IMG/VR virus record: IMGVR_UViG_3300048028_000075 | Span: 1 to 21,176 of that record | Source: a virus | Direction: 5' to 3' (one strand) | Length of the DNA stretch: 21,176 bases | Part shown: positions 3,591 through 20,951 of the stretch, piece after piece | Layout of the letters: the number at the start of each line of letters is the position of its first letter | How positions within the stretch are numbered: position 1 is the stretch's first letter | Notes under the pieces: generated by a model | The model's database searches: none | The model's input: only the letters and a program-made list of their open reading frames with translations | Told to the model about the DNA's origin: nothing | Translations under genes and position numbers: made by a program

Positions 3591-3824
3591 ATGAAATACG
3601 ATCCAGTAAATAGCCCAGCGCATTACAAGTTAAGTGGTGGGATAGAGTGCATTGATTATATTAAACAGGTACTAACTCTTGATCAGTTCATAGGTTACTG
3701 TCACGGTAATATGATTAAGTATCAGCACAGGTACATGTACAAGGGTAACCCTGTGCAGGATATGGAGAAAGCAGAGTGGTATTTAAACAAGATGCTAGAG
3801 GCAATGGAGGAGAAACATAAATGA
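3591..3824 (+). CDS. DUF3310 family phage protein (77 aa)
   Basis: The sequence matches the phage DUF3310 family as I remember it. It opens with VNSPAHYK at residues 6-13, then GGIECIDYI, then a block containing QFIGYCHGNMIKYQHRY, and ends with KGNPVQDMEKAEWYLNKML. Members occur widely in phages and are often labelled as a nucleotide-kinase-like protein, but I know of no secure biochemical basis for that label. The histidine and tyrosine pattern is strongly conserved within the family. AGAGG at 3581-3585 precedes the ATG with a five-base spacer. The stop TGA overlaps the next ATG as ATGA. Length is usual for the single-domain form. The family call is firm, the function open. Confidence 0.85.
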   Translation: MKYDPVNSPAHYKLSGGIECIDYIKQVLTLDQFIGYCHGNMIKYQHRYMYKGNPVQDMEKAEWYLNKMLEAMEEKHK

Positions 3825-4215: not shown

Positions 4216-7200
4216 TTATTCTGTTTGCTTTTTAAAGATACGTAAACTACGTAAAGATTTTTCAGTCTCTAGATACCGTTGGAGTATAAAGAGTTCGTTA
4301 GGTTCTAAGTCTTCGAGGTCTCCTAGATTTAATTCTTTGAGGCCTTTTTGAACACCTGACTTAGGAAACTTGCTAGTTATGTCGTACTGTAGCGCAGTTA
4401 CATCTTCAGGTCCAGAGTATTGCATACGCAAGAAAGTCTTAGCTAAATCTTTTGCTCTGGGTATAACGTCACCCTTCCAATGCTGTAACTTCTCTGCTTG
4501 ATTTAATTTATCAAACCAATTAGACTCTAGTAATAAACTTGACTCTGCTTCTATTATATCAAAGAAGATTCCACTCAAAGTATTTCCGGCTTGAGGTGCT
4601 TGGTCTTTAACTTTCTTACTGTTTCCAATCAGGGTGTCAAGTTTATAGTCTGGTATACCTACCCTATTCATAACACGTTGAGTATCAGTAAGCCTGATGT
4701 TTCTAATACCTAACATCTTAGTGGATTGTATATCAGCTGTACCACCTGCAGCAGTCTGTCTAGCTTCGGCTAAAGGCTCTCCCATAAACAAAGGTATGAT
4801 ATTATCTATGTAACGAAAGGCATTATTTACTAGCTTGTTGTTTTGTTTTCTATCTATAGGTGCAGCATCTTCACCTCTAGCAAGACCAGCGACAATGTTC
4901 AAAGGTTCTGCAGCCCTGAATACAGGATTTACAAACTGACTAGCTAAGGTGTTGCCAGCTATATTTAAAGCACCAGCAACATCACGTCTTTCAGGGTCAA
5001 CCATAAGCGTAATAGACTCTAGTGTATCTCTTTGAGTTTTATCTAAGTTCCTTAATAAACCACTTAAACCAAAGTCTGCACTAAATTGTTTAAAAGCTTC
5101 CATAGCTTGTTGCTTTTCACCCATCCGCATCAACGCCCAGATTCTACCCCCAGCCCTGTATGCAGATATAGGAAAGTCAAACTGCTGATTTATAATTTCC
5201 CCACCAGCAGTAGCTGTTGCATACATAGGTAACCCTTTTTTAACGTTGTCAATTTCTTCATTAGATACTACCCAAAGAGCACCAGCAGATACCGTAGTTC
5301 TAGCAAATGCTTCTTTCATAGTCATGTCTTTATAGAAACCCATACCCTTTGCAATCATGTTTACCCCAGGGGCATTCTTTCCTGTAAAGGCTACTGTGGC
5401 ATTAAAGAATCTACCAAAGGGAACTGCCATACCTATAACAGGAAGTTTTCTGACGTCCTCTATATAACCTGCAACTGTACCCACTAAGCCTTCACCCTTA
5501 TAAGATTTAGAAAAAATTGCCTCTAAGGTATCTTCAACAGCATTAGCTTCTATAGTACGGTATTCCTTACTCCCCATATATTTTTGAAGGGACATATCGC
5601 CTATCTTTTCAGATCTATAAAAGTCATTCCAACCTTTACCTGTAGCAGCTCTAAGCTTCTTATCCATCTGAAATAAAAACTCTTGCGACTTAGTAAATCC
5701 ATCCTGTGCTTGTACTAAGGTAAGCTTCTGCACCATATCAATATAGTTATCTGTTCTTAACCCAACTAATTTCATACGTGGGCTAAACTTACCGCCTGTT
5801 AGTAATGTATTGGTACCCTCTACACCACCAGGGAGTACACTGTTTAGTTTTTGAAGTGCTTCAGAGTTTCTTTGTAGTGCAGATTCAAAAGCTGTATAAG
5901 TCATGTCAGGATCAAGTAAGAACTTGACCCTTTGCATATTAGATTCCATAAGAATCTTAGCTAACCTCTGAGTTTCAGCACCTTTTTCTACTTGACCAGC
6001 CAACTTTTGTAGTGTGCCATATCCAGCATTTACTAGTGCCATAGACATATCAGTAGCACTTTGCAAAGCAGTGTTAGTACCCCAACCAACTACATTAAGT
6101 GCACTTGTAGAAGGATGGGCAACAAGCAGCCTAATTAAACGATCTTGGTTTTTCTGGAAAGCTTCTAACGTCATCCCAGTTATAGTTGGATCAACATCTT
6201 TAGCAGCCTTAGGTTCGGTACCCTTTAAAGTAGACAGCCTTAAGTTTTTGGTGGTAACTTTACCTTTTCTATTGCGATAAACTACTGTTGCCAGATCACC
6301 ATCTATTTCTTTAACTTCACCAATTCTTTTTGTACCTACTGAAGATACTCTATCGCCAACTTCTATTGTCTTAACAGATATATCACCACGAATAAATCCA
6401 GCATCTAAGGCAGACTGATACAGATCCTTCAATTCCATATCAGTAATAGAAAGACCTAGCTGTTTAGCTGACTGACCCATGAGACCAAGAGTTGAACCAG
6501 CCTCAGACATCTTGTATGACAGTATGTCACCTATATCTCTACCAGTAACTTGAGATCTTGGGATGATGTTGCCATCATTGTCACGTACTTTAATCTTATT
6601 ACCAGTAGCTTTTTCAATAGATTTTATAAACCCTTGAGCTTCCTTGTCACTAACATCGGCAATAATATCAGCCATCCAGTTGGTAAACTTATCATCTTCA
6701 AAACGTTTAGCCCAGACAAAACCTTTTTCAAAGGCAGTCTGAGTCATACCCTTAAAGATAACTTCATCGCCTTCGTTATGCCCTAGTATAAGAACTTTAA
6801 AAAAGTCGTGGCTAAAGTCTTTGCTACCTTTAGATAACTCTGCGCCACCCTCTAGTTTTGTCTTCCAATCTCTACCAACATCTACTTTCTTTTGCTTCAC
6901 ATATTTATCTATAGATTGAGAAGCCTCTGACAAAAATCCCGTAGCATCTGGTGTAGATAGTTCCATCGTAGGTACTGCTGTATCTGACACACCACGTCTT
7001 GCAATTAAGCCAGCTTGAACACCACCCATAATAATACCACCAGCAGCAGCTATGCCCACAGCTAGGTAGTTAATATCTTCTTGTGCATCTACATCTACCA
7101 AACCATCTTGATACAAGTACTCCATACCCGTACCTATTGCAGCATCTATACCAGTGGTAATACCTATCTCTGTAATAGCTTTCTTAGTAGCTAGACGTTG

Positions 7201-7908
7201 AGCAGCAGTCTTACCTAAAGTCTGCTGTACATAAGAACCTATCTTAGCTTTAGTAGCTGTACGTGAAGCTTGTACTCCATCCGCAAACATCTTGGTACCA
7301 ACTTTTTCAGCTGTCTTTTTTGTACCTTCTTTTTGCATAGACTGCAGAGCAGCCTTTTTTGCAACTGATGTACCTACACGAATAGAACCATTAGCTGCAG
7401 CTTTACCTATAAACCCCCCAAGAAGGTTTGCTGGATCAAGAAGTACACTTCTAGTGAAGTCCATAATACCTTCAAATTTTTCACCCACTGTCGTTTCTTT
7501 ACTAAAGATGCCAGCCATGTTTTCGTACAGTTTATATGCAGCAGCAGCTCTAGTCTTCTTAGCTTCATCATCTTGTATGTCGTTGATGTAATCTATTTCA
7601 GCTAGACCACGTACAGTATTACCCGACACAACACCACGACGATTGTTTAAGAAGCTGTCGATAACATCTTCTCTAGATTTACCATCTACTTCTTCATCAC
7701 CAAACCTATCACGCATATAGCCTTCAGCTATAGAGTAGGTATAGTCATTCTCTGCTAAATCATTTTGAGTGTATGTACCAGCCTCAGGTAACGCAGGTTC
7801 AACCTTCTTAGGTTCAACTAAAACATTTGGATCAGTTAGAATAAAACCTTCTGGTACATCGACATTTGTAGGTTTATCTAAAATAAACCCCTCAGGTATG
7901 TTAGTCAT
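4216..7908 (-). CDS. Large virion protein, probable internal/DNA-ejection protein (1230 aa)
   Basis: This is a very large, mostly helical protein of the kind phages carry inside the capsid or tail for DNA delivery. It begins with two copies of a PEGFIL motif (residues 5-10 and 19-24), a start I associate with internal virion proteins. Residues 160-260 are rich in Ala, Lys and Gly with repeated basic helices. A strongly hydrophobic glycine/alanine segment at 280-302 could cross or enter a membrane. Residues 516-562 look like a small KOW/SH3-type beta-barrel (VGDRV, GEVKEIDGDLATVVY). The rest gives no catalytic motif I can name. Its start is set by AAGGGG seven bases upstream. It is the last gene of the operon, next to the lysozyme-bearing gene cluster, which supports the inferred role. 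No homology search was possible. Confidence 0.7.
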   Translation of the reverse strand: MTNIPEGFILDKPTNVDVPEGFILTDPNVLVEPKKVEPALPEAGTYTQNDLAENDYTYSIAEGYMRDRFGDEEVDGKSREDVIDSFLNNRRGVVSGNTVRGLAEIDYINDIQDDEAKKTRAAAAYKLYENMAGIFSKETTVGEKFEGIMDFTRSVLLDPANLLGGFIGKAAANGSIRVGTSVAKKAALQSMQKEGTKKTAEKVGTKMFADGVQASRTATKAKIGSYVQQTLGKTAAQRLATKKAITEIGITTGIDAAIGTGMEYLYQDGLVDVDAQEDINYLAVGIAAAGGIIMGGVQAGLIARRGVSDTAVPTMELSTPDATGFLSEASQSIDKYVKQKKVDVGRDWKTKLEGGAELSKGSKDFSHDFFKVLILGHNEGDEVIFKGMTQTAFEKGFVWAKRFEDDKFTNWMADIIADVSDKEAQGFIKSIEKATGNKIKVRDNDGNIIPRSQVTGRDIGDILSYKMSEAGSTLGLMGQSAKQLGLSITDMELKDLYQSALDAGFIRGDISVKTIEVGDRVSSVGTKRIGEVKEIDGDLATVVYRNRKGKVTTKNLRLSTLKGTEPKAAKDVDPTITGMTLEAFQKNQDRLIRLLVAHPSTSALNVVGWGTNTALQSATDMSMALVNAGYGTLQKLAGQVEKGAETQRLAKILMESNMQRVKFLLDPDMTYTAFESALQRNSEALQKLNSVLPGGVEGTNTLLTGGKFSPRMKLVGLRTDNYIDMVQKLTLVQAQDGFTKSQEFLFQMDKKLRAATGKGWNDFYRSEKIGDMSLQKYMGSKEYRTIEANAVEDTLEAIFSKSYKGEGLVGTVAGYIEDVRKLPVIGMAVPFGRFFNATVAFTGKNAPGVNMIAKGMGFYKDMTMKEAFARTTVSAGALWVVSNEEIDNVKKGLPMYATATAGGEIINQQFDFPISAYRAGGRIWALMRMGEKQQAMEAFKQFSADFGLSGLLRNLDKTQRDTLESITLMVDPERRDVAGALNIAGNTLASQFVNPVFRAAEPLNIVAGLARGEDAAPIDRKQNNKLVNNAFRYIDNIIPLFMGEPLAEARQTAAGGTADIQSTKMLGIRNIRLTDTQRVMNRVGIPDYKLDTLIGNSKKVKDQAPQAGNTLSGIFFDIIEAESSLLLESNWFDKLNQAEKLQHWKGDVIPRAKDLAKTFLRMQYSGPEDVTALQYDITSKFPKSGVQKGLKELNLGDLEDLEPNELFILQRYLETEKSLRSLRIFKKQTE

Positions 7909-7917
7909 CTTTACCCC

Positions 7918-8877
7918 TTATAGGTTTACAATATTTCCCTGTGGATCTTTCCAATTAGTACCATTCCAAGTTATTACTGCACCAGTATCAGGATTAGTAG
8001 CTGTAGCACCCACTGAAATACTACTAGGCTCAGGCTTAGGCTCAGTATTTAAAGCCCTTAATTGTGGTGGTAGGTACGGGTTGTTTTGGTAGTTTTCAAA
8101 CTTACTAGGAAACATCTCAACAAGGTTTTCTTGGAACACCGCAGGTGTCATAAACTCATCCATAAGAAGTTGTGCAGCTCGATCCGCTTGATCACCACCA
8201 CTCTGTATTTGATCTAAAAGATTTTGTATTTGACTTGCCTCTGGGGCTTGATCAGAGTCAATAAATTCATTAACTTTAGCCTTAGCTAAAGGTATTGTAT
8301 GATAAAGAACAATTTCTGACATAGCTTTTTGACGTTTTTCTTCTGACGTAAAGTCAGTTAAGACTCCAGGTTTTGCGCTAGGAACAAAGGTACGGCTAGG
8401 CGTAGTGGGAATTTTAGTTATGTCCTGAGCTAACTTATAGTAGTTTTCTTCGGTCATATCCTCGCCAGTGATCGTAGTAATATAATCTATCTTATCTTCA
8501 ACAGGAGCTTCAGATTTAACAATGTACATCATAGAAGGTATTTGCGATAAGGGTACATTTCGTCCTGCGGCATCTAATTTTTCTTGAAAATCTAGTACTT
8601 CTTTAGCTGCAAAAGGATCAGCTACAGCATTATTAAAAAAAGCTAAGGTGTCCTCATCCTCTATACCCGCAGCTGAAACTTGTTTTTCTAACTGTAAAGA
8701 AGCTTGAGCAGCTGTACGATATTTATCACCAGTTCTAAAAGAAGCTTGACCCTCTAATTTTTTTAGGTACAACCCAAGAAGACTTGTCTTACGACTTTCC
8801 TCTAACTCTTCTCTTGCTGCCGCCTCTTCGTCCAGTTTAGTTTGAGCACTCAATGCCCCTGACCAAGTAAATCCCAT
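7918..8877 (-). CDS. Virion-associated protein of unknown function (319 aa)
   Basis: I do not recognise the whole protein. The first 45 residues are charged and helical (LDEEAAAREELEESRKTS), and a long helical body with acidic character follows. The last 35 residues differ: SVGATATNPDTGAVITWNG followed by TNWKDPQGN forms a strand-rich, tryptophan-containing tail like a small peptidoglycan- or surface-binding appendix. I have seen similar GATATNP...W tails on phage structural proteins. No enzyme motif or membrane segment is evident. AAGGAG in the end of the upstream gene, overlapping its stop, precedes the ATG. Its place between the lysozyme cluster and the large internal protein argues for a virion or ejection-apparatus component. 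Confidence 0.65.
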   Translation of the reverse strand: MGFTWSGALSAQTKLDEEAAAREELEESRKTSLLGLYLKKLEGQASFRTGDKYRTAAQASLQLEKQVSAAGIEDEDTLAFFNNAVADPFAAKEVLDFQEKLDAAGRNVPLSQIPSMMYIVKSEAPVEDKIDYITTITGEDMTEENYYKLAQDITKIPTTPSRTFVPSAKPGVLTDFTSEEKRQKAMSEIVLYHTIPLAKAKVNEFIDSDQAPEASQIQNLLDQIQSGGDQADRAAQLLMDEFMTPAVFQENLVEMFPSKFENYQNNPYLPPQLRALNTEPKPEPSSISVGATATNPDTGAVITWNGTNWKDPQGNIVNL

Positions 8878-8880
8878 ATC

Positions 8881-9402
8881 TTATCTCCTTGCCATTAGGC
8901 CTTGAGGTGCAGGGGTAACTTCTTCAGGCTCCTGCTCTTCTTGTTGCGGTTCTTCTACAGTGGGAGTTTCTTTAACAGACTCTCCAGACTCTTTACGTAG
9001 TTTTCTTAGTGCATCCTTGGCACGTCCAGTATCCCTAGCATACTCAAGGGCTTTATCTCTTTCTGGATTATCGAAGCCTTCGTTAAAGTCTACGTCAGCT
9101 TCTATAGCTAACCCTTTAATATACTCGTGCAACAAAGGTGCAATAATAAGACTAACGTCAATACTATGTATACCTTCCATAACCGCACTACGAAGTATCC
9201 CTTCTACTAAAGACACAAGATCTAAACCCTGTTCCAAAAAATACATAGCATCCTCTATTGCTTCAGGGTTTGTCATATTTTCTACATGCAAATCTAAAGC
9301 TTCTACTGGATCTACTATTTCTGAGGGTCTTTCAAAAGGTAGACCCTTTGGTTCTGTTGTTAAGGATTGACCTGGGATAGGTGCTGCAAATATAATACTC
9401 AT
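8881..9402 (-). CDS. Phage structural-operon protein with PIPGQSLT start (173 aa)
   Basis: The protein opens FAAPIPGQSLTTEPKGLPFERP, a signature I have met at the start of small virion-associated proteins in marine phages, often close to structural genes. The body (residues 30-105) is helical, with a hydrophobic helix DVSLIIAPLLHEYIKGLA that is too polar overall to be a membrane segment. The C-terminal 40 residues are low in complexity and acidic (PTVEEPQQEEQEPEE), probably disordered. The start overlaps the upstream lysozyme-domain gene as ATGA, and GGAGG lies six bases before it, so the two are likely translationally coupled. A structural or assembly role is inferred from context only. Confidence 0.65.
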   Translation of the reverse strand: MSIIFAAPIPGQSLTTEPKGLPFERPSEIVDPVEALDLHVENMTNPEAIEDAMYFLEQGLDLVSLVEGILRSAVMEGIHSIDVSLIIAPLLHEYIKGLAIEADVDFNEGFDNPERDKALEYARDTGRAKDALRKLRKESGESVKETPTVEEPQQEEQEPEEVTPAPQGLMARR

Positions 9403-10136
9403 TCTTGTCCTCCAATATAGGAGTTAGCTCTGGATATCCTACTATCCATCATAGGCTTTCCAGGTCTTAGGTACCCTTTAGAAAATATACGAGCCGCTTC
9501 CTCTGCAGTTGTAGCCTCTTGTAGCTTATCCATGAATCTTCCTTCAGAAGTATTTTGAACTTCATGTATAAAGAAACCAAAAGATGCCTCATAGGAATCA
9601 GGATCTAAACTATTCTGAGCTGACCAAGCCTCAAAAGCTTTTCTTCTAGGGCCAGTCCACATTGCAAAACCCCTACCACCTTTTGATCCGGGCACTACAG
9701 GTTTAAGTTCTTGTAAAAATTTAAAGTCTCCAGTCTCATGTGCAAAGTTACCTACAATACCTGCAGCTTGCTCATCAGTTAAACCTAAAGCCTCTGCAAC
9801 ATCTCCCATAAGTCTTTCACCTGTGTCTTTAGTGTTAGAAGATACTGGAGTCTCAATTGACTTAGGGCTTTCACCACTCTGCTCTTTGTTTATCCTATTT
9901 ATTAATTCAGACCTAGCTTGTTTAGCATTATCAGTTAGCTCTACAAAATTTTTCATGCGACTAACTAGTTTAGGTACTAACTCTGAGCCTGGCTTTTCTA
10001 TATCTAATGACATATCTGCATTAGCAGTTCTAGTTCTGCCAGCCAACCCCATTCTTTCTATCTTATCCTTTGTACCTTGATAGCTTCTAGCTGCAGTTTC
10101 AAGTGATGATAAGTTGTTTTTATTGTAAAGCGCCAT
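9399..10136 (-). CDS. Virion-associated protein with a phage tail lysozyme domain (245 aa)
   Basis: Residues about 105-240 match the phage tail lysozyme domain (Phage_lysozyme2 type): LTDEQAAGIVGNFAHETGDF carries the probable catalytic glutamate E134. GGRGFAMWTGPRRKAFEAW follows and shapes the substrate cleft, and a third helical block is FGFFIHEVQNT. Such domains cut peptidoglycan locally so that the tail or ejected DNA can pass. The N-terminal 100 residues are polar, helical and unlike a signal peptide, and probably anchor the enzyme in the particle. With no signal sequence or holin-linked context, this is more likely a virion-borne lysin than the late lysis endolysin. It follows the stop of the 1487-residue repeat protein by two bases and overlaps the next gene by four. 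Confidence 0.85.
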   Translation of the reverse strand: MALYNKNNLSSLETAARSYQGTKDKIERMGLAGRTRTANADMSLDIEKPGSELVPKLVSRMKNFVELTDNAKQARSELINRINKEQSGESPKSIETPVSSNTKDTGERLMGDVAEALGLTDEQAAGIVGNFAHETGDFKFLQELKPVVPGSKGGRGFAMWTGPRRKAFEAWSAQNSLDPDSYEASFGFFIHEVQNTSEGRFMDKLQEATTAEEAARIFSKGYLRPGKPMMDSRISRANSYIGGQE

Positions 10137-10138
10137 GA

Positions 10139-13100
10139 TTATATTATCCCACCCAGTATACCTTTATCTCCAAATAAGAATCTATAAGCAAACTCTGTTT
10201 TAGATGAGTCTTCTTGGAAACTTATTTTTTCTCTTAATGCCTCTAAGGTTTGATCACCTAGAACAATCTGCAATGCACGGTCCTTAGCAGACTCAGCAGA
10301 GGTGTAGTTGTAACTCATTAAGTCACGTTCACGTTGCCACACTGCGTCTATATTCTTGGATGTCATAGCATTAATAGTTGCTGCAAAGGTTGCGTTGCTT
10401 TCATTCTGTGCAGCAGTATTAAGTGTTGCTAAGTTCTGTCTCCACTGAGCATTAGCCTGTGCTACAACTAAACTGTTAGTTGCATTAAACTGATCTCGCT
10501 GTTGTTGAATACCAGCATTAAACTCACGAATAGAATTGATTTCATCAATGTTAAACTGGTTAAGTGCATTGGTTTGTGCAGCATTAAACTGACCAGTTTG
10601 ATTAGCTAACGAAGAAAAGAACTGTCTGGTCTGGTTTTCATTAGCAGCATTAAACTGTGCAGAAGCATTATCAGCAGCTTGATCTGTAAACAACGACTGA
10701 ATATTTTGTTGTGATTTAAATATAGCAGTTTGTTGAGTGTTAGTCAAGTTCGCCATGTTCATGCTAAGGAAGTTTTGTGCTTGTTGCACAGCAGCTTGTT
10801 GCCTGTTGTTTAGGTTCTGCATATCCATACCAGCAAGCTGGGCTGCATTCTGCAATGTAGTTGCTTGATTAGCATTAAGGTTAGCTAGTCCAACAGATTG
10901 CATCAATTGTGAGTTTGCAAGTTGTGTTTGCTGATTAGTGGTATAGGTTATATTATTAGCTTCAGCAAATTTTTCTGCATTTAGTACAGCAGATTGTTGC
11001 TCGTTACTAAGCTCTTGACCACGGAGAGTAGCTTCAATTTGTGCATTAGCTAGTGCTGTCTGTTGACGGTTAGACAGTTCAGCTACATCTCTTTGTAGAT
11101 TGTTAGTCGTATTAAACAGACGTGTTTGCTGCTCATTTGTAAGGTCTATCTTACGTTCTTCTAATACTGCAGAGGTATTGAATATAGAAGCCTGTTGTGT
11201 ATTGTCTAAGACTTTACCTTGAAGTGTAGAATTAGTAACAAAACTTTGTACTAATGCAGCTTGTTTATTGCTTACAGTAATGTTATTTGCTTCTGCGTAT
11301 CTAGCAGCATTAATAATTTCTGTTTGTTGTTCGTTATCTAAAACCTTACCTTGAAGGGCTGCTCTTACTTGTGCATTTGCTAACTCAGTTTGCTGACGAT
11401 TAGAAAGGTTTTGAGTTTCTATTTGTAGAACTTGAGCAGACTCTTGAAGCAGAGCTTGTTGCTTATTGGTAAGGTTAATATCATTTAATTCCGCTACACG
11501 ACTTGCATTAAACAAAGCAGTCTGCTGTCTAACATCTAAGGCTCTGCCTTCTAGTGCTGCCTTAGCTTGAGCATCCTGCAATAGGGCAGTCTGTTGTGCG
11601 TTAGCATTGAACCCTGCACGTTCAAAGGTCTGAGTAGACTGAAGCATAGCAGTCTGTTGCTCATTGCTAAGTTCTTGACCAATAAGAGATGCACGTACTT
11701 GCAAGTTACTCAAAGCAGTTTGCTGTGAGTTAGAAAGGTTAGCCATATCTACTTGTAAATTTTCAGCAGATGCTTGCAACAAAGACTGTTGTTCATTACT
11801 AACATTAACTCTATTCATCTCAGTATACTTTGCAGCGTTAGTCAAAGCAGTTTGAGTTTTAATATCTAAAGTTTTATTTTGTAATGCTGCTTTCATCTGA
11901 GCATTAGAAAGTACAACAGCTTGTTGATTAGTCAAGTTTTGTGATTGAAGTGCAAAAGAGTTAGTGGAGTTTTGCAAAGCAGCTTGTTGAGAGTTACTTA
12001 AGTTTTGTAACGTAATATTCTGTTGTGCTGCAGCATTAGCTAAAGAAACTTGTTGTCTATTACTTAGGTTTTGCATTCCTACTTGTTGATAGAATTGTGC
12101 ATCCTGTGCAGCAATAGGTATAGCAGCTTCCATAGTAGCTTGTACAATAGCTGCACCTGCCATAGAGCTACCAGCTAGTCCTCTTGAAGCCATAGCAGAG
12201 TTAGCTGCTCGCATAGCCCCTGCTGCCCATACAGGAGTGCCATTCTTAAACTGTTCCATTAGTTGGTTCATTTGACCTTGAACAGTCTGAGCAGGATCTA
12301 CTGTACCTTGTGCTGCAGTAGCAAGAGCAGCTTGAGAAAAACTACCTTGAGAAGCTTGCATAATAGATTGGTTATTTAAAGCATCTACTGTTGCAGCTAT
12401 AGAAGTTACAGCTTGAGTAGCACCAATAATATTATTAGCATTAGCAAGTTCTTGTGCACCAACTGTACCTTGAGCACCTTGCAAAGTAGATTGCCACATA
12501 GATTGGGCAGATTGCGCATCAGGTATTTGAGAAGCTTTAGCAGCATTTTGTACGACAGTAGAAGCTTGTTGGGCAAACTGTGTAGGTGAAATGTTATATG
12601 CATCTTGAGCGGTAGCTATTTCTCCTACTGCTAACTGCCTAGTTGCAGCTTCAATAGTAGGACTAAAAGAACTTACAGCTAAAGCTGCTTGCTCTGCAGT
12701 AAGACCTAAACCTTTTGCCTTTACAAGCTCTTGATTTGTAACTTGTGCCTGAGCACCTTGTAATGTACCTAAATCATACTCAGTGGCAGGTTTAGCTTCT
12801 GGAGTTGTAGTTATAAATTTAGCAGATTCAGCTTCTTCATAAGGAGATTCAAAGCCTTTATCTCCAGCTTGAGGTATAATACCTACTTTAGCAAACTCAG
12901 TCATCTCTTGTGGAGATACTTCTCTAGCTCTTTCCTCTGCTTGTTTTAAATAGTCAGTGTCGAACTGTGGTGCAGTTGGGATAGCTTCTGGAGATAGTTG
13001 ACCTTGTTGAGCTTGTATTTGTTGCTCTTGAGGTATAGTTCCTTGAGCGGCTTGTAGCCCTGCTGTTTGTTGCATTACGTAAGGGCTTACTGTAGCAGCA

Positions 13101-14602
13101 CTGTACGTTGATGCAGGTGTGTATGCAGGTAGATTAGCAGTCTCTACTGTAGGTACAGTAGCAGCAGTAGTTGTAGGTGCTGCAGCCCCAACCTGACCTG
13201 CAAGAGTACTAATATCTTGTGTAGCTAGGGGTTGCATGTAGTCTACACCCGATTGAATAGGCTGCATAGTCTGTTGTACAGCTTGTCCAAATGCAGGTGT
13301 TACAGAACCTTCGTAAGTAAACTCTTCGTCAGAAGCTACAGGTGGTGAATACTGAGGACCACGAGTAGGAGTAGGGTTAGGGTTAGGAAATATAGGAAGG
13401 TATTTAAACTCATCTTGAGATACCACACCACCTTCAGCCATACCCATCATAGCTTGTTGGTACTTACCCATACGAGCAGCAGCACCGGGGCTGGCCTTCA
13501 TAAAGTCATTAAGTGCAGGTCTAGACTTTGGTCCTTTATAACCAAGAAACTTTGTAGCTAGTTGGTATTCAGAATTTAAAGTACTATCACTATCACCACC
13601 TTCAGCGTATCCTACGACACCACCTTGGTTCATTCCCATTTTTCTATATCCTTCTGGTACATAGCTTATTGGTTTACCATCTACCTCTGTTACAGGAATA
13701 ATACTACCTTGATCATTAGAATAGTTTACAACTGCAGTTCCACCAGATGTAGGCATAGCCATTTGTTGAGCCATCATTGGAGATGTAGCCAGTGCTTGAC
13801 TGCTTGTACCTGTACCCTCTACTGTAGGTGCAACCTCACCCTCAACATAACCGGGAGGGTTATATACTTCAGCAGTCTTAGCTTCGTAAGGAGTTGCTGG
13901 TAACTTAGGTTGCACAGGCTCACCAGTAACAGGTGGCATAGTAGTTTCTGTTGGGGCAGGATCTATTACTGCTGCATCTTTAAGGGCTTTTTGTTCTTCT
14001 CGTTTAGCTTTAGCTGCAGCGGCTGCTTCCTGTTGAGCTTGTATTTTAGCTGCTGCTGCTTTAGCCATAGCTTCATCTTCTGAACGAACTCTTTTAGCTT
14101 CTGCTTCTGCAGCAGCTTCTGCCTCTGCTATACGTTGAGCTTCAGCTAGTGCATCTGCTTTGGCTTTAGCCTCTGCTGCTTCACGTTCTGCTTTAGCTTT
14201 TTCAGCAGCCTTAGCCTTACGAGCTTCTTCAGCTTTACGGGCAGCTTCTGCTTTAGCTGCCGCAGCAGCCTTACGAGCTTCTTCAGCCTTACGTGCAGCT
14301 TCAGCCTTAGCAGCAGCTTCTGCTTTAACCCTAGCAGCTTCTGCAGCTATACGATCCTGTTCTTTCTTCCAAGCAGTATAACCATTATCTTCATTAAGTT
14401 TAGCACGAAAGGCATTACCTTCTTCATGGAGTAGGCTTTTTTGGATCTGACCTTTATCATTACGAATGTCACGATAAGCAGTCATTTTCTTATCGCCCGT
14501 AACAGAGTTTTGCATAACTCCACGTTGCATGTAAGGTCTATCATTTAAGTATAAATTATATACCCACCGCCATTCACCAGGATTTTCCTTTGGTATTGCC
14601 AT
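10139..14602 (-). CDS. Giant repeat-containing structural protein (1487 aa)
   Basis: Four regions can be seen. Residues 1-78 form a compact head rich in Trp, Tyr and Arg. Residues 79-211 are an Ala/Lys/Glu coiled coil like the TolA stalk. Residues 212-843 are Pro/Thr/Gln-rich, carrying QGGVVGYAEGG at 326-336, MAEGGVV at 388-394 and a WAAGAMRAAN block at about 791. Residues 844-1305 are 21 consecutive 22-residue repeats. The C-terminal 180 residues are Asn/Gln-rich and end in a charged helix. The NLSNxQQ repeats and the WAAGAMRAAN block recall structural proteins of uncultured marine phages. Function is not known to me. An elongated fibre, spike, or tape-measure-like rod are all possible. Its gene lies between small membrane proteins and the lysozyme-domain gene. 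The ribosome-binding site is weak (GGATAG). Confidence 0.75.
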   Translation of the reverse strand: MAIPKENPGEWRWVYNLYLNDRPYMQRGVMQNSVTGDKKMTAYRDIRNDKGQIQKSLLHEEGNAFRAKLNEDNGYTAWKKEQDRIAAEAARVKAEAAAKAEAARKAEEARKAAAAAKAEAARKAEEARKAKAAEKAKAEREAAEAKAKADALAEAQRIAEAEAAAEAEAKRVRSEDEAMAKAAAAKIQAQQEAAAAAKAKREEQKALKDAAVIDPAPTETTMPPVTGEPVQPKLPATPYEAKTAEVYNPPGYVEGEVAPTVEGTGTSSQALATSPMMAQQMAMPTSGGTAVVNYSNDQGSIIPVTEVDGKPISYVPEGYRKMGMNQGGVVGYAEGGDSDSTLNSEYQLATKFLGYKGPKSRPALNDFMKASPGAAARMGKYQQAMMGMAEGGVVSQDEFKYLPIFPNPNPTPTRGPQYSPPVASDEEFTYEGSVTPAFGQAVQQTMQPIQSGVDYMQPLATQDISTLAGQVGAAAPTTTAATVPTVETANLPAYTPASTYSAATVSPYVMQQTAGLQAAQGTIPQEQQIQAQQGQLSPEAIPTAPQFDTDYLKQAEERAREVSPQEMTEFAKVGIIPQAGDKGFESPYEEAESAKFITTTPEAKPATEYDLGTLQGAQAQVTNQELVKAKGLGLTAEQAALAVSSFSPTIEAATRQLAVGEIATAQDAYNISPTQFAQQASTVVQNAAKASQIPDAQSAQSMWQSTLQGAQGTVGAQELANANNIIGATQAVTSIAATVDALNNQSIMQASQGSFSQAALATAAQGTVDPAQTVQGQMNQLMEQFKNGTPVWAAGAMRAANSAMASRGLAGSSMAGAAIVQATMEAAIPIAAQDAQFYQQVGMQNLSNRQQVSLANAAAQQNITLQNLSNSQQAALQNSTNSFALQSQNLTNQQAVVLSNAQMKAALQNKTLDIKTQTALTNAAKYTEMNRVNVSNEQQSLLQASAENLQVDMANLSNSQQTALSNLQVRASLIGQELSNEQQTAMLQSTQTFERAGFNANAQQTALLQDAQAKAALEGRALDVRQQTALFNASRVAELNDINLTNKQQALLQESAQVLQIETQNLSNRQQTELANAQVRAALQGKVLDNEQQTEIINAARYAEANNITVSNKQAALVQSFVTNSTLQGKVLDNTQQASIFNTSAVLEERKIDLTNEQQTRLFNTTNNLQRDVAELSNRQQTALANAQIEATLRGQELSNEQQSAVLNAEKFAEANNITYTTNQQTQLANSQLMQSVGLANLNANQATTLQNAAQLAGMDMQNLNNRQQAAVQQAQNFLSMNMANLTNTQQTAIFKSQQNIQSLFTDQAADNASAQFNAANENQTRQFFSSLANQTGQFNAAQTNALNQFNIDEINSIREFNAGIQQQRDQFNATNSLVVAQANAQWRQNLATLNTAAQNESNATFAATINAMTSKNIDAVWQRERDLMSYNYTSAESAKDRALQIVLGDQTLEALREKISFQEDSSKTEFAYRFLFGDKGILGGII
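10688..12073 (-). repeat. 21 tandem 22-residue (66-bp) coding repeats
   Basis: Residues 844-1305 of the giant protein divide without any insertion or deletion into 21 units of 22 residues. Positions 2-11 follow NLSNxQQTAL, and position 4 is Ser, Thr, Asp or Asn in all 21 units. Gly often occupies position 22. There is no Pro, Cys or Trp in the block. The pattern fits either a hendecad coiled coil (22 = 2 x 11) or helices of about 18 residues each starting at an N-cap at position 4. Confidence 0.95.
10952..11941 (-). repeat. Three 110-residue (330-bp) super-repeats within the 22-mer array
   Basis: Units 3-7, 8-12 and 13-17 of the 22-residue array align with each other in register: residues 888-997, 998-1107 and 1108-1217. 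Unit 4 matches unit 9 (LD[IV]..QTAL.NA). Units 5, 10 and 15 share an LQ[VIR][DE] end, although the residues around it vary. Units 6, 11 and 16 share LSN.QQT.L.N.Q. Units 7, 12 and 17 share .NEQQ followed by a long polar end. The five-unit block therefore seems to have been duplicated twice. Confidence 0.8.
13970..14368 (-). repeat. Ala/Lys/Glu-rich stalk-coding region with internal repeats
   Basis: Residues 79-211 of the giant protein are almost all Ala, Lys, Glu and Arg. The segment AEAARKAEEARKA occurs twice, 19 residues apart in start position (residues 99 and 118). This composition predicts a long single helix or coiled coil. The opposite-strand open frame here is only its shadow. Confidence 0.85.
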
Positions 14603-16461: not shown

Positions 16462-16480
16462 ATTATGTTCCTGAACATGA
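16459..16480. repeat. 22-bp junction direct repeat, copy 1, with a palindrome
   Basis: This 22-bp sequence is identical to 17411-17432. It holds the next gene's start codon (CAT on the plus strand), the upstream stop, the AGGAA ribosome-binding site, and the palindrome ATGTTCCTGAACAT (16465-16478). The two copies are 952 bp apart, which equals one fibre gene plus its junction. Confidence 0.85.
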
Positions 16481-17413
16481 CCCCGGCCCCCACGCAACCT
16501 GTATTAAATCTCCGAAATCTGTAGCATTACCTGTAGTATCTATTGTTATATAGTCTATAACGTCTAAATTAGCATCGCTACGGCCTCCACCAAATATAGC
16601 CCTTGATGCATCAGAACACCCTGCCGTATAATATCTAGCAACAGTTAAGTCACCAAAATCTGTAGCGTTTCCTGTGGTCTGAATGGTAATATAATCTATT
16701 ATATTTTGATTACCACTAAGCACTCCACCAGTACCTGAACCTCCAGCAAACACTCCTCTAGTAGTACTAGAAGCAGCACCCATACTACGTCTACCACCTG
16801 TCAAATCGCCAAATAAAGCTGCGTTTCCTGTAGTCTGTATAGTGACATAATGCATATCATCACGGTTAAGATGACCTGCAAATACACCTCTTGTACTATC
16901 AGAGCAAGCAGATGGCCCTGACCCTGAAGTAACTAAGTCTCCAAAATCAGTAGCATCTCCTGTACTAGCAATAGTAATGTAATCAATAACGTTTGTGTTT
17001 GCGCTGCTACCACCGCCAAAAAGCCCTCGTATACTGTCCGAACAAGAACCTAGTGATCCCCGTGCGGCTGTAAGATTACCGAAATCAGTGGCATTACCAG
17101 TCGTGGATACTGTTACATAATCAATTGTGTTGTTGTCACCTGTTTGTACACCGCCACCAAAGACACCCCTACTCCCGTCAGAGCAACCCGCAAGAAAATA
17201 TCTAGCTACTGTTAAGTTACCAAAGTCTTGGGCATTACCAGTGGTTTGAATAGTAACATAGTTAATAGTATCAATAGTTACACCACCACCCCATAAGCCA
17301 CGACTACCATACCATTTAGGAGTATTATCACCACCTACAGCTACACCATTAAAAGTCGTAGCCCCTGTTAGGTTGCTTATATCGTCTGTCTGATGATTAA
17401 TTGTTAGTGACAT
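16463..17413 (-). CDS. Kelch-like repeat fibre protein, third of three paralogues (316 aa)
   Basis: A short N-terminal domain, MSLTINHQTDDISN to GVAVGGDN (residues 1-30), is followed by six repeats of about 42-50 residues. Each repeat runs RG[VL]FGGG, then a variable stretch, then IDY[IV]TI.TTGNATDFGDLT.AR, then a variable patch, and ends near GCS. This is a Kelch-like beta-propeller pattern, and six repeats predict one closed propeller. In phages such proteins are good candidates for receptor binding. The MSLT start follows the AGGAA in the repeated junction; a longer in-frame start merely reads that junction. Repeat 4 is degenerate (AGHLNRDDMHYVTI, short). The end SCSGT is shared with the middle paralogue. 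Function is inferred from fold type and context. Confidence 0.8.
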   Translation of the reverse strand: MSLTINHQTDDISNLTGATTFNGVAVGGDNTPKWYGSRGLWGGGVTIDTINYVTIQTTGNAQDFGNLTVARYFLAGCSDGSRGVFGGGVQTGDNNTIDYVTVSTTGNATDFGNLTAARGSLGSCSDSIRGLFGGGSSANTNVIDYITIASTGDATDFGDLVTSGSGPSACSDSTRGVFAGHLNRDDMHYVTIQTTGNAALFGDLTGGRRSMGAASSTTRGVFAGGSGTGGVLSGNQNIIDYITIQTTGNATDFGDLTVARYYTAGCSDASRAIFGGGRSDANLDVIDYITIDTTGNATDFGDLIQVAWGPGSCSGT

Positions 17414-17417
17414 ATTA
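17391..17417. repeat. 27-bp direct repeat at the 5' end of a Kelch-like gene, copy 1
   Basis: These 27 bp, covering the first eight codons (MSLTINHQ) and the upstream stop, are identical to 18382-18408. The first paralogue has a diverged version at 19340-19362. Confidence 0.85.
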
Positions 17418-17432
17418 TGTTCCTGAACATGA
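17411..17432. repeat. 22-bp junction direct repeat, copy 2, with a palindrome
   Basis: This is identical to 16459-16480, with the same palindrome at 17417-17430. It forms the junction between the middle and last Kelch-like genes, while copy 1 forms the junction to the helical 269-aa gene. Confidence 0.85.
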
Positions 17433-18404
17433 AGCAGTTCCAAAAGCCGCCGCTGTTAGATCCCCAAAGTCCGTAGTATTGCCAGCGGTAGCTATGGTTA
17501 TATATTGTATAGTATTAAGGTATGAACTAGCACTACCCCCGGAAAAAACACCACGGCTAATATTAGAAGTTCCACTAATTTGATTTGTATTTTCAGTCAA
17601 ATCTCCAAAGTCAGTTGCGTTACCTGTCGTAGCCATAGTTATATAATCTATATTATTATAAGCGGCTCCATAACCTCGTCCACCAGCAAAAACACCACGA
17701 GTAAGACTTCCACAAGAAGCAAAATTGTATCTACTCTGAGTAAGATCGCCAAAGTCTTGAGCATTACCTGTAGTGTCAATAGTTACATACTCAATAGTAT
17801 TATGATCTGCACTTGTAGAGTTGCTAGTTCCATCTGTACCTCCTGCAAATATACCCCTAGTGCCATTTGATACACCTACTACACCAACTCTACCTGCAGT
17901 TAAATTACCAAAATCCGTAGCATTGCCCGTAGTAGCGATAGTTACATAGTCAATAATATCACTTTTAATCCACCCAGAAGACCAATACTGCCCCCCTGCA
18001 ATTAAACCCCTAGCATTACTAGAGCATCCTGCTAAACCTTCGTTTCTAGCTACAGTTAAATCACCAAAGTCCGTAGTATTGCTAGGATTTGCTATGGTAA
18101 AATACTCAATGACATCATAATTAGTTCCAGCACCTGCAAAAATACCTCTAGAACCGTTAGAAAAAGATGCAGAATTTAATGTCTGAGAAGATGTAGTCCT
18201 GTCTCCAAAGTCAGTTGCGTTACCTGTCGTAGCTATAGTTATATAATCTATCCTATTACTATACCCACCTACATAACCTAAAGCAATTACACCTCTACTA
18301 CCGTACCATTTAGGACTATTATCACCACCAACAGCTACACCACCAACAGTTATAACACCGTCATTGCTAATCTCATTTGTTTGATGATTAATTGTTAGTG
18401 ACAT
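17415..18404 (-). CDS. Kelch-like repeat fibre protein, second of three paralogues (329 aa)
   Basis: It has the same layout as its neighbours: residues 1-33 are MSLTINHQTNEISN to AVGGDNSPKWYG, then six Kelch-like repeats. Variable stretches differ in length and sequence from the other two copies. Repeat 1 departs from the consensus (RGVIALGYVGGYSNRIDY), and repeat 2 has IANPSNTTDFGDLT. The variable patches after DFGDLT are Asn-, Ser- and Tyr-rich, as in exposed binding loops. AGGAG at 18411-18415 (reverse strand) is placed six bases before the ATG at 18404, so the MSLT start is chosen rather than the eight-residue extension. Its stop codon is followed by a single base and the next ATG (TAATATG). 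Receptor binding is a family-level inference. Confidence 0.8.
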   Translation of the reverse strand: MSLTINHQTNEISNDGVITVGGVAVGGDNSPKWYGSRGVIALGYVGGYSNRIDYITIATTGNATDFGDRTTSSQTLNSASFSNGSRGIFAGAGTNYDVIEYFTIANPSNTTDFGDLTVARNEGLAGCSSNARGLIAGGQYWSSGWIKSDIIDYVTIATTGNATDFGNLTAGRVGVVGVSNGTRGIFAGGTDGTSNSTSADHNTIEYVTIDTTGNAQDFGDLTQSRYNFASCGSLTRGVFAGGRGYGAAYNNIDYITMATTGNATDFGDLTENTNQISGTSNISRGVFSGGSASSYLNTIQYITIATAGNTTDFGDLTAAAFGTASCSGT

Positions 18405-18408
18405 ATTA
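18382..18408. repeat. 27-bp direct repeat at the 5' end of a Kelch-like gene, copy 2
   Basis: This is identical to 17391-17417 and lies 991 bp away, the length of the middle paralogue plus its one-base spacer. Beyond the 27 bp, the downstream junction here is diverged (TCTCCTGAACA in place of TGTTCCTGAACA). Confidence 0.85.
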
Positions 18409-19362
18409 ATCTCCTGAACAACCAGCAAGCTGTACTCTAGCTGCAGTTAAATCACCAAAATCAGTAGCATTACCTGTGTTTGCAATAGTAATGTATTCAA
18501 TAGTATTTTCACCACTACCGCTTGTATTATCTCCACCACCAAACACAGCCCTTGTTCCATTTGTAGAAGCTGCAACACCGTACCGTATAGAAGAAAGATT
18601 ACCAAAGTCTGTAGCATTACCTGTGGTAGCTACAGTTATGTAATCTATAACGTCAAGATTAGATCCTCCTGACCTACCACCGCCAAACACCCCACGAGTT
18701 TTATTAGATGCTCCTGCTGAGTTATGTCTTGCAACAGTAAGATCACCAAAATCAGTAGCATTACCTGTGGTTTGTATTGTTACAAAATCTATAACATTAG
18801 AAGGATCACCGGGTCTACCACCAGCAAATACACCCTTAGTTCCATCAGAAAGTGCAAAAGGTTGATACCTACCTGTAGTTAAATCACCAAAGTCTGTAGC
18901 ATTTCCTGTACTTGCTATAGTTACATATTGAATAACAGTAGAACCAGCATCTGCAGCACCACCACCAAATAGTCCTCTAGTAGGGTCTGAGCAACCTGCT
19001 AAGTCGTATTCGGTAGCTAATAAGTTACCAAAGTCTGCAGCGTTGCCTGTAGTAGCTATAGTCACATAGTCTATTGTATCTGTTGAAGAAAAACCACCAC
19101 CTGCAAAAAGCCCACGTCCTGAACCTGCACATGATGCAAGTCTATAACGAGCTACAGATAAATCTCCAAAGTCAGTTGCATTGCCCGTTGAGGATATAGT
19201 TACATAATCTATTGTAGATCTATCAGAGCCATAACCCCCACCAAATAAACCACGATCACCAAAGTAAGGACTATTATCACCACCAACAGCTACGCCATTA
19301 ACAAGGATAGTACCAGTAGCATTGCTAATGTCGTTAGTCTGATGGTTAATGGTAAGAGACAT
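18406..19362 (-). CDS. Kelch-like repeat fibre protein, first of three paralogues (318 aa)
   Basis: Residues 1-33 form the shared N-terminal domain (MSLTINHQTNDISN to GDNSPYFG). Six Kelch-like repeats then run to the end, again of the type R[GA][LV]FGGG...IDYVTI.STGNATDFGDL. This copy is the most regular of the three: every repeat keeps a TGNA.DFG core. It ends GCSGD rather than the SCSGT ending of the other two copies. The ATG at 19362 is preceded by AAGGT nine bases upstream, and a 10-bp gap separates it from the 101-aa gene. One six-bladed propeller per protein is the simplest reading. Expression of all three together suggests either hetero-oligomeric fibres or several receptor specificities on one particle; both are inference. 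Confidence 0.8.
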   Translation of the reverse strand: MSLTINHQTNDISNATGTILVNGVAVGGDNSPYFGDRGLFGGGYGSDRSTIDYVTISSTGNATDFGDLSVARYRLASCAGSGRGLFAGGGFSSTDTIDYVTIATTGNAADFGNLLATEYDLAGCSDPTRGLFGGGAADAGSTVIQYVTIASTGNATDFGDLTTGRYQPFALSDGTKGVFAGGRPGDPSNVIDFVTIQTTGNATDFGDLTVARHNSAGASNKTRGVFGGGRSGGSNLDVIDYITVATTGNATDFGNLSSIRYGVAASTNGTRAVFGGGDNTSGSGENTIEYITIANTGNATDFGDLTAARVQLAGCSGD

Positions 19363-19691: not shown

Positions 19692-19905
19692 TTAGGCGTA
19701 AGTTACTTCAGTGGTTCTAATATTAGCCACCCAGCGTATGTTATGGCTCGCTTCACCAGTACAGGTGATAGCCAATGCGTTGTTCGTATTATCGGCTGAA
19801 AGAGCCATGCCCCAGCTTGATAAGTTCTGGATCACTGTAGTTGCACTGTTGGCGAGTGTGGTTGTACCACCGTCATTTACTAGCAAACCCTCAATGCGGA
19901 ATGAG
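19692..19905 (-). repeat. C-terminal fibre-domain repeat shared with 20964-21176
   Basis: This stretch encodes the last about 65 residues of the complete YadA-type fibre. It aligns without gaps over most of its length with the end of the truncated upstream fibre gene, about 1.27 kb away in direct orientation. Synonymous differences are scattered through the block of identical residues, so the two copies are not a recent duplication. Confidence 0.75.
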
Positions 19906-20951
19906 GCATAGGCTTGTGCGCCGTTTTGCATAGCAGTGATAGTACCGTCAAAGGTAATGCAGGTATCACTTGCTGCTACGATTTGATTTGTAGCTGCTGC
20001 CGTGCTGTTGTTTGTTGTAAGTACAGTAGCTGTTGCATCTGTAGTGTCTGCACGAAGGATAAACTGACCACCTTGAGCATCACCTGCAGCAGCAAACTTA
20101 CCAGAAGCATGTGCATTCTTTCCGTGTTGTGATATTTTTGCTTCATAACCCATTGCTAGGCTATAATCTCCATTACTTTCTATCGTGCTATTTCTACCAA
20201 GGGCTGTACAATAGTCGCCAGAAATAGTGTGTGATCTTCCAATACCTGCGGAACTTGTACCACTAGAAGTAATTCCATAACCAATTGCTAGGGACTGATC
20301 GCCACTAGCGGTAGAATACCCAGACTGCCCCAGACAAATTGCATTAGTTCCTGTGGCCCTAGCTCTATAGCCAAGAGCAACAGAACCGCTTGCACCTGTT
20401 GCGTAACCTTGATAGCCAATGTTTATATTACCAATGCCTGTAGCCTTAGATAAGTAGCCCATCGCAATACTATTAGTACCACTAGTACCGTAGCTTGAAG
20501 TGTTATTATATATAACGGCGGCAAAACTACTTTGTTGACTAGCTCTTGATTTACCGATAGCTACACAGTATTGGCTAACAGCTTGTGCGTCTTGTCCTAT
20601 TGCTAAAGAACCAGTTGTTCCAGAGTATGTACTTGTTCCCTCTCCGATAGCAACAGAATAGGCACCATTTGCCCCGCTATTTGGCCCGATTGCAACAGCG
20701 CCTGTCCATGAATTAAAAACATCTGCACCATTACCAATTGCAATACTGTTATTACCTGTAGCTATAGCACTTGAACCAATAGCTATTGACAGTGTACCAC
20801 TAGCCGTTGGATCAGTTGAGCCTGTTGTTTCAGCAGCATAAAGATCAGCACCACCACCTACAGCACTGCCACCTAATAATAAACTTGTACCATCTGAGCT
20901 AAGGGTTATAGCACCGCCAGAGCCTGTGTTATCAATATTAATAGAACCCAT
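19692..20951 (-). CDS. YadA-head-type trimeric tail fibre protein (419 aa)
   Basis: Residues 1-35 (NIDNTGSGGAITLSSDG to GGSAVGGG) form a short N-terminal region typical of marine phage fibres. Residues about 54-285 are a run of YadA/Hia head repeats, SIAIGSSAIATGNNSIAIG and relatives, which form a left-handed trimeric beta-roll in trimeric adhesins. Residues 294-419 form a separate C-terminal domain starting GGQFILRADTTDATATVLT and ending NIRTTEVTYA. Together this is a fibre shaft and tip, probably a host-binding fibre. GGAG sits nine bases upstream of ATG 20951, and the previous gene stops 12 bases before it. The C-terminal 65 residues are close to those of the upstream truncated gene. No chaperone autoprocessing motif was seen. 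Confidence 0.85.
   Translation of the reverse strand: MGSINIDNTGSGGAITLSSDGTSLLLGGSAVGGGADLYAAETTGSTDPTASGTLSIAIGSSAIATGNNSIAIGNGADVFNSWTGAVAIGPNSGANGAYSVAIGEGTSTYSGTTGSLAIGQDAQAVSQYCVAIGKSRASQQSSFAAVIYNNTSSYGTSGTNSIAMGYLSKATGIGNINIGYQGYATGASGSVALGYRARATGTNAICLGQSGYSTASGDQSLAIGYGITSSGTSSAGIGRSHTISGDYCTALGRNSTIESNGDYSLAMGYEAKISQHGKNAHASGKFAAAGDAQGGQFILRADTTDATATVLTTNNSTAAATNQIVAASDTCITFDGTITAMQNGAQAYASFRIEGLLVNDGGTTTLANSATTVIQNLSSWGMALSADNTNNALAITCTGEASHNIRWVANIRTTEVTYA

Follow-up and report, generated by a model that had tools for sequence, protein, structure and literature searches.

A repeat array that changes length in steps of 11 residues in a late protein of short-tailed phages

What does selection keep in a protein whose repeats drift freely in sequence but hold their length? 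The question is raised by a 21,176-nucleotide stretch of viral DNA, positions 1 to 21,176 of IMG/VR record IMGVR_UViG_3300048028_000075, which is referred to in full as the window. A sequence-only reading had picked out 21 gapless units of 22 residues in a 1487-residue protein, and had proposed that spacing is under selection, that the number of units may act as a ruler and that the units form either one long helix or a stacked solenoid. The count is exact: 10688-12073 on the minus strand encodes residues 844-1305, which is 21 x 22 with no indel. The comparison with homologues indicates that the step by which the array changes is 11 residues, that the number of steps is free, and that a ruler is not supported.

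A gp25-type protein built on a doubled 11-mer

The repeat protein (10139..14602, minus strand) has no Pfam or PHROG match, and tblastn together with synteny identifies it as an orthologue of phage1322_25 (gp25) of Puniceispirillum phage HMO-2011. Further relatives found by tblastn come from CRP roseophages, HTVC103P/104P/115P/033P, Vibrio phage CHOED, Aeromonas phage MQM1, Pseudoalteromonas phage Slicky01, Sinorhizobium phage phiM6 and Rhizobium phages. When the family's most divergent members served as tblastn queries, no phage outside the HMO-2011/CHOED/phiM6 group was reached. Annotation calls all of them hypothetical proteins, with the exception of one metagenome record (MW202701.1), in which an orthologue is misannotated as 'huntingtin'. 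The isolate relatives are short-tailed (PMC9038755, PMC6918029), and HMO-2011-type phages reportedly rank with the most abundant viruses of the sea (PMC9038755).

The window protein carries, in a single ORF, the three conserved blocks 'pre', 'mid' and 'post', which it shares, along with gene order, with its orthologues in the gp25 family (phage1322_25, CRP-2 gp49, HTVC104P gp61, CHOED_013, SmphiM6_25 and MQM1_018). All parts lie on the minus strand. An Ala/Lys/Glu-rich N-terminal stretch (residues 80-205; 13988..14365) has a period of about six residues, or 18 bp, visible in the sequence and with Tandem Repeats Finder (TRF), which reports period 18 at 14204-14320 of the window DNA; the N-terminal parts of gp25-type proteins are of very unequal length among relatives. 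The block 'pre' (residues 788-840; 12083..12241; ..WAAGAMR..RGLAGSSMAGAAIVQA..IPIAAQDA), defined from alignments and as an HMM, is followed by the array proper, 20 gapless 22-mers or 440 residues (845-1284; 10751..12070), equal to 4 x 110, where HMO-2011 has five units and CHOED and MQM1 have one each. The final 22-mer unit and the block 'mid' occupy residues 1285-1345 (10568..10750; NLTNTQQTAIFKSQQNIQSLFTDQAADNA..QFNA). An FNA-type tail of single 11-mers then carries on the register of the array from residue 1307 to about residue 1427 (10322..10684; ..QFNAAQTNALNQFN..), with N at position 1 and frequently F at position 11. The block 'post', again from alignment and HMM, spans residues 1362-1450 (10253..10519; FNAGIQQQRDQFNA..QANAQWRQN..WQRERD), and the variable C-terminus covers residues 1451-1487 (10142..10252), in place of which a Peptidase_S74 chaperone domain or another module stands in some relatives. 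In HMO-2011 gp25 the C-terminus (L039:13200-13410) is a different, Trp-rich module, CWVAREVYGEGDPRWYAFRIWLKYKAPKWL..., common to many close relatives.

The periodicity is strong in the protein. Self-identity reaches 0.27 at a lag of 22 residues, 0.32 at 66, 0.39 at 110 and 0.33 at both 176 and 220, against a shuffle baseline of 0.10 +/- 0.015. The 110-residue super-repeat proposed earlier is real, with five-unit blocks counted from unit 3 sharing 48%, 39% and 46% identity pairwise, but it is not confined to units 3-17, since the block series also takes in units on either side. The DNA does not show the periods of 22 and 110 residues: TRF reported no tandem repeat in the array region. Identical residues 110 apart use the same codon at a frequency of 0.46, the value also obtained for random pairs (0.46), which indicates that the duplication is old and its synonymous sites saturated; the protein pattern has thus been kept while the codons were randomised. 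A recent tandem duplication of the DNA is ruled out by these codons and the TRF result. Gln and Asn make up 31% of the array. Position 4 of the unit, as first numbered, is Ser, Thr, Asp or Asn in 21 of 21 units and so always of N-cap type; it corresponds to position 3 in the register of the end block. Gly, said to stand often at position 22, does so in about 6 of 21 units, near position 21 in the end-block register.

When set against the end block, the 22-mer resolves into two hendecads with slightly different cores, NLSNxQQAALA and NAQxx(A/Q)QMDLA. The suggested relation to 11-residue right-handed coiled coils is supported, and the unit is a doubled 11-mer in one hendecad register. Asn occupies hendecad position 1 in 73% of the first halves of the array units, 63% of the second halves and 70% of the tail, and in 33 of 53 consecutive hendecads of the window protein. 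The 11-residue period, the mark of a hendecad coiled coil, extends over the whole rod. The agreement with a hydrophobic core of 4-4-3 spacing is mixed: L2, L10, A13, A17 and L/M21 fit, but Gln occupies the core position Q6 in 84% of units, and at 3.67 residues per turn the hydrophobic moment has a weak peak, a modest 2.3. In the homologue with the longest array (L291; IMG/VR 3300005611_000049; 43 units), an N-L/A-x motif recurs every 11 residues, and identity at lag 11 is 0.19 against 0.10 expected.

Array length across homologues

To measure array length across the family, the blocks 'pre', 'mid' and 'post' were made into HMMs and placed on each relative, including 240 further IMG/VR loci. 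The resulting 251 distinct proteins have 17 different array lengths, namely 22, 44, 66, 88, 99, 110, 165, 176, 220, 286, 330, 396, 440, 550, 616, 660 and 946 residues, and 11 divides the array length exactly in all 251. It is a multiple of 22 in 229 of them and half-integral (99 or 165 residues) in the other 22, and these half-unit arrays rule out a quantum of 22. The stretch behind the array follows the same rule, with lengths of 55, 66, 77, 99, 110, 121 or 209 residues, all multiples of 11. When moduli from 2 to 44 were tried on a first, smaller homologue set, only 11 fitted every length. On a tree of 143 sequences the array has changed length at least 44 times, the exact number being uncertain given long branches and weak forks.

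The regions on either side of the array behave differently. Among pairwise alignment gaps, 26 of 1968 in the 250 N-terminal residues before the array and 24 of 709 in the C-terminus are multiples of 11; this amounts to 1-3%, and most gaps in these control regions are of 1-10 residues. Within the array about half of the pairwise gaps are multiples of 11, and the rest are read as single in-phase changes that the aligner broke in two, since no distance from block to block is out of phase. Pair identity is 0.51 before the array, 0.42 in the C-terminus and 0.77 in the array, and slower evolution of the array explains part of the contrast in gaps; the total absence of net changes out of phase does not follow from it. 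The length quantum is 11, not 22, the number of steps is free, and in the set examined the phase is kept without exception. As such, the 251 homologues in phase uphold the proposal that spacing, rather than sequence, is what selection keeps.

How freely the number varies is clearest between close relatives. Two loci whose blocks are 97% identical, L291 and L292, have arrays of 946 and 616 residues; L168 and L174, at 92%, have 660 and 330; and L006 differs from the window protein, at 94%, by 330 against 440 residues. In this last pair units 9-13 of the window protein are, by best match, the ones missing from L006, which accounts for the 110-residue difference. The array of L291 has an internal period of 220 residues, with an identity of 0.51 at lag 220 and 0.08 at lags 219 and 221.

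Probable fold of the array and its possible role

The array probably folds as a continuous hendecad helix rather than as a solenoid, a judgement that concerns the fold alone and draws on helical couplings, on the arrays with half-integral unit counts, on the lack of single-residue indels in the linker and on the 11-residue repeats seen in L291. In a direct-coupling analysis of 1622 unit triples (Neff 284, a small set in which subfamily structure can inflate local couplings), i+3/i+4 couplings across positions 17-1, the supposed linker, match those elsewhere in strength. Pairs separated by over eight positions all stay below z 2.5, and no convincing coupling between units was seen. As one helix, the rod of the window protein, at 580 residues x 0.15 nm, would be about 87 nm long and the array of L291 about 142 nm (946 residues). 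The capsid of a phage with a genome of about 55 kb is smaller than a rod of about 142 nm. Inside the head such a rod would therefore not lie straight and would have to be folded.

An alpha-solenoid, in which each 22-mer would contribute a helix of about 16 residues and a six-residue turn to an elongated superhelix, with a continuous helix only in the C-terminal hendecad stretch, is unlikely, even though structure prediction draws it. AlphaFold2, run on residues 760-1487 with 29 sequences, gives 16-residue helices and six-residue linkers in every 22 residues and a single 125-residue helix behind the array; within the array pLDDT is 80-89 over the first half and about 50-78 later, with a model mean of 66.6 and a pTM of 0.42. 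The invariant N-cap position, preceded by Gly in some units, and the 229 of 251 arrays that are multiples of 22 are also what stacked helices would give. Against such a fold stand the 22 half-integral arrays, the 11-residue repeat of L291, the helical couplings that span the linker without coupling between units (with the small Neff in mind), and a net count of zero single-residue linker indels in about 2300 units, which would be unusual for a solenoid. AlphaFold, moreover, reportedly introduces spurious bends into long coiled coils and fails on hendecads (PMC11676326), and this weakness may explain the broken helix of the window model. For the short relative L026, AlphaFold2 itself drew one 203-residue helix, which would speak against stacking, though at a pLDDT of 40, and the model was discarded. 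Searches for a fold match were of little use: no solved structure was found by sequence at E 0.1, Foldseek with the window model gave at best E 0.013 to designed proteins at a TM of about 0.2, and a VIA fold search reached a best Z of 5.8, both unusable. For a helical repeat, a missing match says little either way.

The setting of the gene bears on what a continuous helical rod might do. The repeat gene heads a module at the end of the late operon, followed by a lysozyme gene and by genes for proteins of about 170, about 320-500 and about 1100-1230 residues. In the window these are, on the minus strand, a 245-residue protein with a phage tail lysozyme domain (9399..10136; Phage_lysozyme2, PF18013, E 5e-22) and three proteins of 173, 319 and 1230 residues (4216..9402), whose order and similar size range are kept behind the repeat protein in relatives. 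A search for family matches of known function gave none for these three, and a family search with the following genes of HMO-2011, phiM6, CHOED and MQM1 gave no real match. HMO-2011 and the window agree in the order repeat protein, small or lysozyme gene, protein of about 170 residues, mid-size protein and protein of about 1100 residues, and beyond the late genes both have a strand switch followed by MazG and RNR. The synteny extends over HMO-2011, CRP, HTVC, CHOED, MQM1, phiM6 and Rhizobium phages, with the repeat protein ahead of the last late genes, which include the proteins of about 170 residues, of mid size and of large size. By position, the genes in 4216..9402 form a putative internal or ejection-type module. 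Elsewhere in the window, a 77-residue ORF on the plus strand (3591-3824), presumably a DUF3310-type small phage protein, has RNR on one side and the converging late operon on the other. Three tandem paralogous proteins of 326, 337 and 318 residues (16463-19362, minus strand), likely fibre or receptor-binding proteins, share the start MSLTINHQTN..ISN and Kelch-like repeats RG(L/V)FGGG...IDY(V/I)TI.(T/S)TGNATDFGDLT, and a 419-residue protein (19692-20951, minus strand) has SIAIG/AIGxxA repeats comparable to the head of trimeric autotransporter adhesins.

The best explanation as a whole, which is offered tentatively, is that the array is the hendecad helical rod of an ejected internal virion protein. 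Its status as a virion protein is suggested by synteny, and ejection and a role as rod or conduit by the place of the gene, its lysozyme neighbour and a helical composition rich in Gln and Asn. The array and the FNA-type hendecads would form a long alpha-helical rod with 3.67 residues per turn, its 11-residue register unbroken over about 580 residues in the window phage, along which copies of the protein would pair side by side as a coiled coil or helical tube. Because such pairing would need the phase to be kept, the only indels to survive would be those in steps of 11 residues, or three helical turns. The rod could be lengthened or shortened with little penalty by recombination between blocks (110 residues, or 30 turns, in this lineage), and after ejection from the short-tailed particle into the envelope the Gln/Asn-rich helices might serve as a rod or DNA conduit. 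The more specific version, a tape-like protein of digital length in which phase is the function and is selected to the residue over hundreds of residues and through dozens of separate length changes, with length drifting more than fortyfold because it is neutral or tuned to the host, is rather doubtful. For the gp25-type protein, searches of literature and structures turned up neither a solved structure nor any proteomic or genetic data, and no known ejection family in Pfam or PHROG matches its body. PHROG labels of 'DNA ejection' and 'virion structural' for CRP-212, CRP-3 and CRP-738 were set aside, as these matches depend on the S74 end, vanish when it is removed and so carry no weight.

That the hendecads instead form the shaft of a trimeric fibre or tail appendage outside the particle, free in length and in some members folded by a C-terminal S74 chaperone, is likewise unlikely. 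Four isolate members do have a Peptidase_S74-like C-terminus, CRP-738 (L056), CRP-235 (L058), CRP-3 (L059) and CRP-212 (L060); C-terminal modules are swapped among relatives, large changes in length are tolerated, one N-terminus has a LysM-type match, and fibre genes lie upstream. By Pfam, however, the S74 domain is absent from the window protein, as it is from most relatives, and it does not separate an appendage from an ejection protein, since phrog_4287, annotated as a DNA ejection protein, bears an S74 end as well. Downstream of the fibre genes, furthermore, the repeat gene stands in one group with those for the lysozyme and the large proteins. In CRP-235 the N-terminal match is of endolysin/LysM type, so that modular ends surround a conserved core.

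Finally, it is highly improbable that selection fits the unit number to a dimension of the particle or the envelope: the strict unit length and the tape measure proteins (TMPs) of long-tailed phages, whose 11-residue units act as rulers (PMC3271669), would favour it, but a short-tailed phage lacks the long tail that a ruler would gauge, isolate genomes span 52-69 kb while arrays range widely, and near-identical phages, with flanks 92-97% identical, differ by 110 to 330 residues (330/440, 330/660 and 616/946), so that the unit number is not a conserved ruler.

Comparison with known systems

Hendecad helical repeats in late proteins of phages are of a kind already known; what is new is that, in short-tailed phages, an 11-residue quantum holds without exception while lengths span more than fortyfold. 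A literature search found nothing on how HMO-2011-type phages cross the envelope, and the natural variants, from 22 to 946 residues, constitute a ready series to test whether the length of the rod affects how DNA is delivered. If the digital-length version were true, abundant short-tailed marine phages would assemble a hendecad tube or rod in the envelope. The gp25 family could also serve as a benchmark for structure prediction, because AlphaFold2 and the evolutionary record disagree on its fold.

A close parallel is offered by the TMPs (Belcaid 2011, PMC3271669), which share with gp25 the 11-residue quantum, the variation of unit number by duplication and loss, and the setting in a phage structural protein. 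They belong to long-tailed phages, are marked by Trp/Phe and have lengths proportional to the tail, whereas gp25 comes from short-tailed phages, shows no conservation of length, and is marked in its array by Asn, with no Trp/Phe every 11 residues and Phe only in the hendecad tail; no sequence match between the two was found. Hendecad coiled coils of the tetrabrachion type (Martinez-Goikoetxea and Lupas 2023), as reported in PMC11676326, have a similarly long and strict 11-residue period; relative to that account, the gp25 array differs in its Q/N-rich composition and a Gln core layer every 22 residues, and its right-handed oligomer is putative.

Two ejection systems resemble gp25 in setting or in the proposed function. 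The T7 proteins gp14, gp15 and gp16 (PMC8954989) are likewise helical and encoded near large late proteins and a peptidoglycan hydrolase, but they have no detectable sequence relation to gp25 and no hendecad array is described for them. The tube of the phiX174 DNA pilot protein H has Gln-rich hendecad helices (QKELTKMQLDN) and an amide-lined lumen, and is proposed, as is the gp25-type protein here, to act as a conduit across the envelope (PMC7354561). It has only three hendecads, followed by heptads, in a total of 121 residues; by analogy rather than kinship, phiX174 H illustrates that helices of this kind can form a DNA conduit.
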